DNA from: Paraeggerthella hongkongensis | GTDB taxonomy: Bacteria > Actinomycetota > Coriobacteriia > Coriobacteriales > Eggerthellaceae | Length of the DNA stretch: 64,000 bases | Direction of reading: 5' to 3' | Assembly (NCBI RefSeq): GCF_003340345.1 | Contig: NZ_PPTQ01000002.1 | Span: forward strand, 124,001 to 188,000 | Part shown: positions 37,020-38,889 of the stretch, piece after piece | How positions within the stretch are numbered: the stretch's first letter is position 1 | Layout: the number at the start of each line of letters is the position of its first letter | The notes under the pieces: model-generated | Database searches by the model: none | What the model was told of the DNA's origin: nothing | What the model saw: the letters and a program-made list of their open reading frames with translations, nothing else | Program-made: the position numbers and the translations under genes

Positions 37020-38603
37020 ATGTCGACGGAAGCGACTGCACCCGCCCGATCCGTCGGGCAGCGCGAGGGAAAGCCGAAGAAGAGCCGCAAGCTCAGCTTT
37101 CCCACCGCGTTCACCATCCTGTTCGCGCTCACTATTGTTGCGGTAGCTGCAACGTGGTTCGTGCCCGCGGGCCAGTACGCGAAGCTCGCGTACAACGCGG
37201 ATGACAACGTGCTGCAGATCACCAGTCCTCAGAAGCAGGTTACGGAAGTGGCTGCCACGCAAGAGGAGCTTGACAAGATCGGCGTGAACATCGACATCGA
37301 GCAATTCACGTCGGGCGCGCTATCCAAGCCCATTTCCGTTCCGGGCACTTACGAACAGCTCGAACAGCAGCCTAAGGGCATCGCCGACATCACGGTGAGC
37401 ATGGTGTCGGGAACCATCGAAGCGGCGGACATCATGGTGTTCATCCTGGTGCTCGGCGGCCTTATCGGCGTGGTCAACGCCAGCGGTGCTTTCGAATCGG
37501 GTCTCATGGCTCTCACCAAGAAGACGAAGGGACGCGAGTTTCTGCTCGTGTTCTTGGTGAGCGTTCTCATGGTGCTCGGTGGCACCACCTGCGGTTTGGA
37601 GGAGGAGGCTGTCGCCTTCTACCCGATCCTCGTGCCCATATTCCTGGCGCTCGGCTACGACTCCATCATCTGCGTGGGCGCCATCTTCTTGGCCGGGTCG
37701 ATGGGAACGACGTTCTCGACCATCAACCCGTTCTCGGTCGTTATCGCATCGAACGCGGCGGGCATCAACTTCACGCAGGGCATCGAATGGCGCGTGGCGG
37801 GCTGCATCGTGGGCGCGCTCGTGGTCATCGGCTACCTGTATTGGTACAGCCGCAAGATCAAGGCCGACCCTACGTTTTCCTACACGTACGAAGATCGTGA
37901 GAAGTTCGCGCAGCTTTACAACGTGGAAGCGGGCGAGACCGAAGAGGCCAAGGAAAGCGGGTTCACGCTTCGCAAGAAGACCATCCTGGTGCTGTTCGTG
38001 ATAGCGTTTCCCATCATGGTGTGGGGCGTCGTCAGCCAAGGCTGGTGGTTCCCCCAGATGGCGGCCTCGTTCTTGGCGATCGCCATCATTATCATGTTCC
38101 TTTCCGGCATAGCCGAGAAGCAGGTGGTTGACGCCTTCATCAACGGAGCGTCCAGCTTGGTGGGCGTGTCGCTGATCATCGGCCTGGCGCGCGGAATCAA
38201 CCTCATCATGGAGCAGGGGCTCATCTCCGATACCCTTCTGCACTGGTCTTCGGGCTTGGTGCAGGGCATGCAGGGCCCCGTGTTCATCATCGTCATGATG
38301 CTCGTGTTCTTCTTCCTGGGCTTCGTGGTTCCCTCGTCGTCGGGTCTTGCGGTTCTGTCCATGCCCATCATGGCGCCGCTGGCCGACACCGTGGGCATCC
38401 CTCGCTCGGTGGTCGTGTGCGCCTACCAGTGGGGCCAGTACGCCATGCTCTACCTTGCGCCAACGGGCTTGGTGCTGGCAACGCTTACCATGCTGGACAT
38501 GAAGTACTCGAAGTGGCTGAAGTTCGTGTGGCCCATGGTGGTGTTCGTGCTCGTGTTCGGCGGCATCCTGCTGGTTGCGCAGGTCCTCATGTACAGCGCG
38601 TGA
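37020..38603 (+). CDS. YfcC-family transporter
   Basis: A 527-aa membrane transporter of the YfcC/ArcD-like group within the ion-transporter superfamily. A basic N-terminal tail of about 35 residues is followed by some 12 helices. Typical stretches are FPTAFTILFALTIVAVAATW with FVPAGQYAKL, LGGTTCGLEEEAVAFYPILV, GSMGTTFSTINPFSVVIASN and FVVPSSSGLAVLSMPIMAPL. An outer insert of about 60 residues follows the first helix. Family members move amino acids, peptides or short carboxylic acids; the substrate is unknown. AAAGGGG precedes the ATG. Probably controlled by the divergent LuxR-type regulator. Confidence 0.85.
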   Translation: MSTEATAPARSVGQREGKPKKSRKLSFPTAFTILFALTIVAVAATWFVPAGQYAKLAYNADDNVLQITSPQKQVTEVAATQEELDKIGVNIDIEQFTSGALSKPISVPGTYEQLEQQPKGIADITVSMVSGTIEAADIMVFILVLGGLIGVVNASGAFESGLMALTKKTKGREFLLVFLVSVLMVLGGTTCGLEEEAVAFYPILVPIFLALGYDSIICVGAIFLAGSMGTTFSTINPFSVVIASNAAGINFTQGIEWRVAGCIVGALVVIGYLYWYSRKIKADPTFSYTYEDREKFAQLYNVEAGETEEAKESGFTLRKKTILVLFVIAFPIMVWGVVSQGWWFPQMAASFLAIAIIIMFLSGIAEKQVVDAFINGASSLVGVSLIIGLARGINLIMEQGLISDTLLHWSSGLVQGMQGPVFIIVMMLVFFFLGFVVPSSSGLAVLSMPIMAPLADTVGIPRSVVVCAYQWGQYAMLYLAPTGLVLATLTMLDMKYSKWLKFVWPMVVFVLVFGGILLVAQVLMYSA

Positions 38604-38633
38604 TCCAACGCACATCCGCGGGCGCTTCGCAAC

Positions 38634-38642
38634 TGTCGGACA
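38634..38642. repeat. TGTCGGACA palindrome, copy 1
   Basis: TGTC-G-GACA, a dyad. A second copy overlaps the -35 box of the MATE promoter at 38716-38724, so both may bind a repressor. Confidence 0.4.
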
Positions 38643-38667
38643 ACGGTACGCGCGCCCGATATTCGTC

Positions 38668-38698
38668 ACGGCCCGGCAGCGTTTCGCCGGGCCGTTTT
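38668..38698 (+). terminator. Terminator of the YfcC-family gene
   Basis: ACGGCCCGGC pairs with GCCGGGCCGT around an 8-base loop, followed by TTT. Confidence 0.88.
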
Positions 38699-38714: not shown

Positions 38715-38743
38715 TTGTCGGACAAAGTTCGTTCCCGTATACT
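38715..38743 (+). promoter_or_regulatory. Promoter of the MATE gene with overlapping palindrome
   Basis: TTGTCG at 38715-38720 and TATACT at 38738-38743 with a 17-base spacer. The 11-base dyad TTGTC-G-GACAA (38715-38725) covers the -35 box. Transcription should start near 38750, just before the first leader hairpin. Confidence 0.7.
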
Positions 38744-38749
38744 GATGCC

Positions 38750-38889
38750 TGCTCGGGATGACCCGAGACTCGATGCGTCGAGCCCTTTCGAGGAAGCTCC
38801 GCAGCCGAGATCCCGTTAGCCGGGACAACCCGGAACGTTTATCGACCACGTATACGCCCAGATCGTCCGGGCGTATACGTGGTCGTTTT
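38750..38889 (+). ncRNA. Structured leader with terminator before a MATE exporter (riboswitch/attenuator candidate)
   Basis: Three hairpins follow the predicted transcription start: CTCGGG-ATGA-CCCGAG (38752-38767), CTCGA-TGCG-TCGAG (38769-38782) and CCGGG-ACAA-CCCGG (38820-38833). Then comes a perfect 17-bp stem (38843-38859 with 38869-38885) ending in TTTT, which is an intrinsic terminator 20 bases before the coding start. A terminator in the leader of an exporter gene implies ligand- or factor-controlled readthrough. Guanidine-IV (mepA) riboswitches precede MATE genes in other bacteria, but I could not match their conserved bases here, so the class is open. Confidence 0.55.
38843..38889 (+). 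terminator. Leader terminator of the MATE gene
   Basis: Seventeen consecutive base pairs including ACCACGTATACGCCC and its complement, a 9-base loop, then TTTT. It lies inside the 5' leader, so it must be bypassed for expression. Confidence 0.85.

Follow-up and report, generated by a model that had tools for sequence, protein, structure and literature searches.

Conserved leader RNA of a MATE exporter gene in Eggerthellaceae, a possible kissing-loop riboswitch variant related to guanidine-II

The leader of a MATE exporter gene in Paraeggerthella hongkongensis is almost certainly a conserved cis-regulatory RNA. It is located between this gene and a gene for a YfcC-like antiporter in the 64-kb stretch of contig NZ_PPTQ01000002.1 that was analysed as a whole and is called the window below. 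By analogy, a kissing-loop architecture of the guanidine-II kind is likely for this RNA. For the complete reading, a guanidine-II-like kissing-loop riboswitch variant controlling the MATE exporter, the arguments on both sides appear evenly balanced, and the same comparison gives guanidinium or one of its relatives about even prospects of being the ligand.

Location and parts of the leader

A promoter, three hairpins, a terminator and the start of a MATE gene had been proposed in this order in the initial annotation, and this arrangement was borne out (Table 1). The upstream gene ends at position 38603, and its product matched PRK11588 with 275 bits (cut-off 500). The MATE reading frame reached 156.6 bits with TIGR00797 (cut-off 147.4), and the nearest solved structure of its product is BH2163 (E 1e-60). 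A scan for promoters produced one match with 1.2 expected, which is no better than chance; of 20 orthologous MATE genes, however, 19 are preceded by a TATACT box and the remaining one by TATGCT.

Table 1 Features of the MATE leader and its surroundings (positions within the window)
Feature	Position	Strand	Remarks
Promoter-like site TTGTCG-17 nt-TATACT	38715..38743	+	Transcript start expected at ~38750; TATACT upstream of MATE orthologues
P1 hairpin CUCGGG-AUGA-CCCGAG	38752..38767	+	Loop at 38758-38761, proposed kissing partner 1; loop invariant in 12/12
P2 hairpin	38769..38809	+	Variable outer stem; near-invariant core GCGU(N)GAGC ... GYUCCGC; missing in G004
Joining segment GUYNG	38815..38819	+	Conserved; GUUAG here, GUCUG in most
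P3 hairpin CCGGG-ACAA-CCCGG	38820..38833	+	Loop at 38825-38828, proposed kissing partner 2; invariant in 12/12
17-bp terminator-like hairpin and UUUU	38843..38889	+	Likely expression platform in Paraeggerthella
MATE-family efflux transporter, 482 aa	38910..40358	+	Presumed regulated gene; TIGR00797; PDB relative BH2163

The loops of P1 and P3, AUGA and ACAA, are invariant in all 12 examples of the element, and their centres, UG and CA, are complementary. Including the flanks they read GGGA-UG-ACCC in P1 and GGGA-CA-ACCC in P3. P2 is inserted in the linker between these hairpins in 11 of the 12 examples, while a genome designated G004 harbors a minimal natural form consisting of P1, a linker of 13 nt and P3. 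The P2 core and the GUYNG segment are conserved nearly as well as the loops. The stem of the terminator-like hairpin is perfect over 17 bp (38843-38859/38869-38885) and is followed by UUUU (38886-38889). On both strands of the window, GGGANNACCC occurs three times, and two of the three copies are in the MATE leader.

Several further repeats were noted. P1 and P3 correspond to near-palindromes in the DNA (CTCGGGATGACCCGAG and CCGGGACAACCCGG). Another near-palindrome, TTGTCGGACAA, covers the -35 box (38715-38725) and has a near copy 82 bp upstream (38633-38643). Allowing up to one mismatch, four matches to it were found in the window with 0.9 expected, one site being counted on both strands; judged by its sequence, it could be an operator. 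An additional GC-rich inverted repeat, with TTTT behind it, was seen by eye at 38668-38698, 3' of the antiporter gene, and is probably the terminator of that gene.

Distribution of the element

A covariance model, R1, was built from 11 sequences, and matches were accepted at E ≤ 1e-5. Applying this model, the element, which comprises the first ~88 nt of the leader, was detected in 12 of 138 Eggerthellaceae genomes with E values from 8.6e-17 to 1e-5, in all cases between a TATACT box and the orthologous MATE gene. What had been called a structured leader is indeed a conserved, co-varying RNA associated with one MATE gene. Samples of 395 genomes of the order and 396 genomes of the phylum, which overlap with each other and with the family sample, contained the same 12 carriers and four of them, respectively, and no carrier outside Eggerthellaceae. 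With genus names inferred from the contigs, the carriers represent five genera: two are Paraeggerthella, three Eggerthella, one Enteroscipio, five belong to the Gordonibacter group, and G004 to another genus.

A number of other matches were not accepted. The R1 match in G151 (25.9 bits, E 0.022) was above the E limit, and three reverse-strand matches of 20-22 bits coincide with the near-palindromic element itself and were left out of the counts. A first, loose DNA pattern matched in 20 of the 138 genomes; 11 of these matches are the motif, and none of the other nine places was picked by R1. In viral contigs, four stretches fitting a strict two-hairpin pattern were obtained, all in long open frames and three of them identical, indicating chance or coding sequence, and a looser pattern yielded 38 stretches, three in common with the strict set. 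If other kissing combinations are allowed, GGGANNACCC occurs twice in 40 of the 395 order genomes. Among the places listed, many of these pairs are GGGAGTACCC repeats, a dispersed palindromic type abundant in genomes of the order (e.g. G545, G575, and G608). Outside G004, six such places from five genomes (G072, G155, G643 twice, G139, and G448) appeared by eye to be repeats or long open frames, and none of the six was recognised as a MATE leader.

Orthologues of the MATE gene were found in 19 of the 138 Eggerthellaceae genomes at E ≤ 1e-180. A twentieth, in G105, has the motif and a match below this threshold; in the assembly (L055/L066), its reading frame is interrupted near residue 155 behind an intact element. 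Altogether, the motif precedes 12 of the 20 orthologues, and eight are without it. In E. sinensis (G031), P1 and P2 are absent, and a decayed remnant of P3 was seen by eye right after the -10 box. In five motif-less genes (G102, G118, G119, G157, and G158), the -10 box is followed after 6-8 nt by an ATG in frame, as if their mRNAs were leaderless. In G023, the first in-frame start past the box is a GTG 38 nt on and there is no close in-frame ATG; in G090, no in-frame start is present from the box to the match. The loci of motif-less orthologues include L040, L164, L165, L166, L171, and L173. In a tree of the MATE proteins, genes with and without the motif are interspersed, several forks being weakly supported, and this mixture suggests that the motif was inherited and repeatedly lost.

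A description of the element was not found in the open-access literature, several searches covering the top-ranked results only, and subscription papers and supplements being outside the scope of the search. The main texts of two reports on genome-wide RNA discovery (PMC11109978, PMC8632094) do not mention Eggerthella or Gordonibacter.

Covariation and folding

In an alignment of the 12 sequences, which was fitted to the model structure and is therefore biased towards it, the model pairs are formed in 98.7% of the cells, compared to 28-53% with the partners slid. Over the whole structure, changes on both sides were counted in five cells, a value matched by none of 500 shuffles. Such changes affect three pairs, of which P1 contains two and the P2 core one, with none in P3, and 13 of 500 shuffles scored as high. 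The outer P2 stem had been left out of R1. Its strands fit their own partners better than permuted ones; with 8 of 11 rows kept, the fraction of permutations as good was 0.0002 of 40320, and with all 11 rows it was 0 of 20000. Aligning Eggerthellaceae leaders, which the initial annotation had named as a check, revealed covariation in P1 and the outer P2 stem. For the P3 stem, there is no such evidence, because it is invariant in all 12 sequences.

The leader from 38750 to 38889 is predicted to fold with -71.8 kcal/mol and a z-score of -7.3, and none of 200 shuffles was as good. Much of this is due to the terminator, since the conserved 88-nt part alone has a z-score of -2.9, with three of 200 shuffles as good. 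Folded one by one, the 12 sequences exceed shuffles only to a moderate degree (z -1.1 to -3.6), and for three of them (L069, L070, and L073) energy folding does not give the whole model structure. Conservation is stronger evidence than these folding statistics.

Comparison with guanidine riboswitches

Among guanidine riboswitches, guanidine-II is the smallest, and for its function it depends on a pair of ACGR loops that are self-complementary. It is also the family to which the element comes closest. At gathering scores, no Rfam 15 family was detected in the leader, consistent with the initial annotation, which could not match a known consensus, and the window contains only a tRNA elsewhere. 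The minimal form of G004 was compared to 4227 Rfam families, and the best was Guanidine-II (RF01068) with 20.6 bits (gathering score 32). Each hairpin is aligned with its counterpart, AUGA taking the place of ACGA in one loop and ACAA in the other. The window leader reached 10.0 bits, through one hairpin only. Elsewhere in the G004 genome, RF01068 has matches of 24, 24, and 21 bits; the sequence match alone is therefore modest, with an estimate of ~1e-4 for this place. In a genome-wide RF01068 search of G004 (E ≤ 1, strict filters), the element was not listed. Guanidine-II was not found above the cut-off in 60 relatives, only four of the 12 carriers being among them.

The similarities to guanidine-II (mini-ykkC, RF01068) concern the overall architecture. 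P1 and P3 are GC-rich stem-loops in 12/12 and resemble each other in sequence (GGGANNACCC twice), the tetraloops are of the A-NN-A type, closed by G-C and complementary in their centres, the linker is of variable length (13 nt in G004), and the RNA lies in the leader of an efflux-pump gene. On the other hand, clear differences exist. While guanidine-II has ACGR in both loops, AUGA and ACAA are found here in all 12 examples, the kissing pairs are CG:CG there but proposed to be UG:CA here, and the third position, a G in both loops there, is G in P1 and A in P3. The P2 domain in the linker of 11 of the 12 examples adds a core that, together with GUYNG, is unexplained by guanidine-II. The genes differ as well, SMR or carboxylase genes there and MATE here, never SMR or a guanidine enzyme, and both scores of the element are under the Rfam cut-off of 32. 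Guanidine-II is described as mostly proteobacterial (PMC12186494), whereas the element is known from one actinobacterial family. Because of its loops, which are not ACGR, and its Rfam scores, the element is not filed as a member of guanidine-II. A divergent guanidine riboswitch or a new class, as suggested in the initial annotation, agrees with these data; in both sequence and architecture, guanidine-II is closest.

In the guanidine-II crystal structure as described in PMC5486947, loop positions 2 and 3 pair across the loops, the first loop A contacts the other stem, and the fourth base is extruded. The G at loop position 3 (through O6 and N7) and loop phosphates bind guanidinium, which is stacked on the closing G (PMC5486947). 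ACGA loops are reported as the best binders, and one ligand seems sufficient (PMC9300104); isolated P1 is reported to change from a duplex to the kissing form upon addition of guanidinium (PMC7544219). Measured against the crystal structure as described there, the element keeps the positions except that, of the two cross pairs, one is U:A instead of C:G, and the second pocket consequently has A for G. Judged by sequence, UG:CA is a compensatory change relative to guanidine-II. Since the loops are fixed in 12/12, covariation within the motif does not support the kiss, which we infer.

Other guanidine riboswitches were also considered. Guanidine-I (RF00442) did not match the window leader and, at E ≤ 0.01, was absent from all 12 carriers. 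Guanidine-III (RF01763) did not match the window leader either; at E ≤ 1e-4, it was found in five of the 12 carriers (three above the cut-off), each time directly before an SMR gene, and in none of the other seven, Paraeggerthella and G004 included. Judging from this arrangement in 5/12, several carriers live with guanidine. Such guanidine-III/SMR loci were noted in genomes of the Gordonibacter group, Enteroscipio, and Eggerthella (L104, L105, and L107; also G105 and G107). SMR genes (PF00893) are present in 10 of the 12 carriers; 15 genomes were searched, and 13 were positive. Guanidine-IV is described as a two-hairpin aptamer joined by a pseudoknot, with the 3' hairpin, which contains conserved bases, as the terminator, and MATE genes are common to it and the orphan variant Gd4v (PMC9788692). 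By this description, the leader shares with both a MATE gene as a regulated gene and a terminator-type output, but its terminal hairpin is outside the element and varies in sequence and size between genera. No match named as guanidine-IV was among the Rfam results for the leader, and the comparison with this class follows its published description. An Rfam match to sX7 (37.2 bits, gathering score 55) rests largely on the 17-bp terminator stem and was rejected.

Output and possible switching

A strong hairpin is predicted closely 3' of the element in 12/12 leaders, but its sequence is not conserved between genera. A run of at least four U within 140 nt after P3 was found in two of the 12, both from Paraeggerthella. 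The very stable terminator of the initial annotation is thus present here as a 17-bp stem with UUUU, but it is not the general output. Folding of growing transcripts, performed for the window only, revealed no antiterminator, and the 17-bp hairpin was formed whether P3 was blocked or free. Masking of the Shine-Dalgarno sequence was considered by eye, with GCUCC of the P2 core pairing to GGAGC in Eggerthella leaders; this fails for G004, which has no P2, and for Paraeggerthella, which has a weak ribosome site. The minimum-energy fold of the G004 element is a long P1:P3 duplex. This duplex and the separate kissing hairpins could represent the two states of a switch.

Proposed mechanism and alternatives

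In the favored reading, a kissing-loop riboswitch variant of the guanidine-II type, the GC stems of P1 and P3 would present A-N-N-A tetraloops closed by G-C, and UG of P1 would kiss CA of P3 via one U-A and one G-C pair. By analogy to guanidine-II, the P1 loop would keep the guanidinium pocket, with the position-3 G paired to C of the other loop and the closing G available for stacking, and in the P3 loop A would replace the ligand-contacting G. As one pocket is kept and the other altered, one guanidinium or guanidino compound would be bound, and the second site may accept a different group. P2 would be an accessory domain. Ligand binding would favor the kissing form over a rival pairing, e.g. 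the long P1:P3 duplex, and would alter MATE expression, with induction as the most likely direction; the adjoining terminator would be the output in Paraeggerthella. Against this reading count, besides the loops and Rfam scores, the regulated gene itself, a MATE rather than an SMR or guanidine-enzyme gene, and the seven of 12 carriers in which no guanidine-III was found. In a more specific version, which we regard as improbable, the switch is asymmetric with two sites, guanidinium in the P1 pocket and another group in the P3 pocket. The latter might suit a ureido or amide group, since A offers a donor and an acceptor (N6, N7).

The pockets of guanidine-I variants have been re-aimed at other ligands, and the same has been proposed for Gd4v. 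A similar change could apply here: the fold would still be the kissing-loop fold, but C to U in P1 and G to A in P3 would retarget the pockets to another small molecule exported by the MATE protein. We consider this a tentative alternative of clearly lower probability. It is favored by the changed P3 base, the ligand-contacting base in guanidine-II as described (PMC5486947), and by MATE genes being also under guanidine-IV and the orphan Gd4v (PMC9788692). Furthermore, five of the 12 carriers already have guanidine-III/SMR and would have no obvious need for another guanidine system. However, the whole guanidinium site is retained in the P1 loop, and Paraeggerthella and G004 have neither a guanidine-III (E ≤ 1e-4) nor a guanidine-I (E ≤ 0.01) match.

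It is unlikely that the leader is an unrelated new riboswitch or a protein-binding leader centred on the P2 core, with P1 and P3 as a scaffold and a coincidental likeness to guanidine-II. The strong conservation of GCGU(N)GAGC/GYUCCGC and GUYNG, both absent from guanidine-II, would be accounted for in this way. Yet G004 manages without P2 and still has P1, GUCUG, and P3, and the A-NN-A type, the closing G-C pair, and the complementary centres are kept in both loops.

Two further explanations are very unlikely. At the DNA level, P1 and P3 could be palindromic operators, located 3' of the promoter and bound by a repressor, as their near-palindromes and the nearly palindromic TTGTCGGACAA at -35 would allow, but the palindrome centres are the invariant part, substitutions in the P1 flanks compensate each other, the outer P2 stem shows RNA covariation, and the spacing of the two sites is quite different in G004. 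A ligand-free leader, acting as a constitutive attenuator or stabilising the mRNA, would agree with the hairpin after the element in every leader and with the window terminator forming irrespective of P3, but would not require the loops and joining segments to be invariant across five genera, nor is the downstream hairpin sequence conserved between them.

Implications

If the asymmetric two-site version is true, two chemical groups would be read, either as two ligands or as one two-headed molecule, in the control of a MATE exporter in gut Eggerthellaceae. A variant that keeps the loop pairing with unequal pockets would show how a kissing-loop switch can change its specificity and would directly test whether one guanidinium site suffices. 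It would also point to a substrate for an uncharacterised MATE exporter of gut bacteria.
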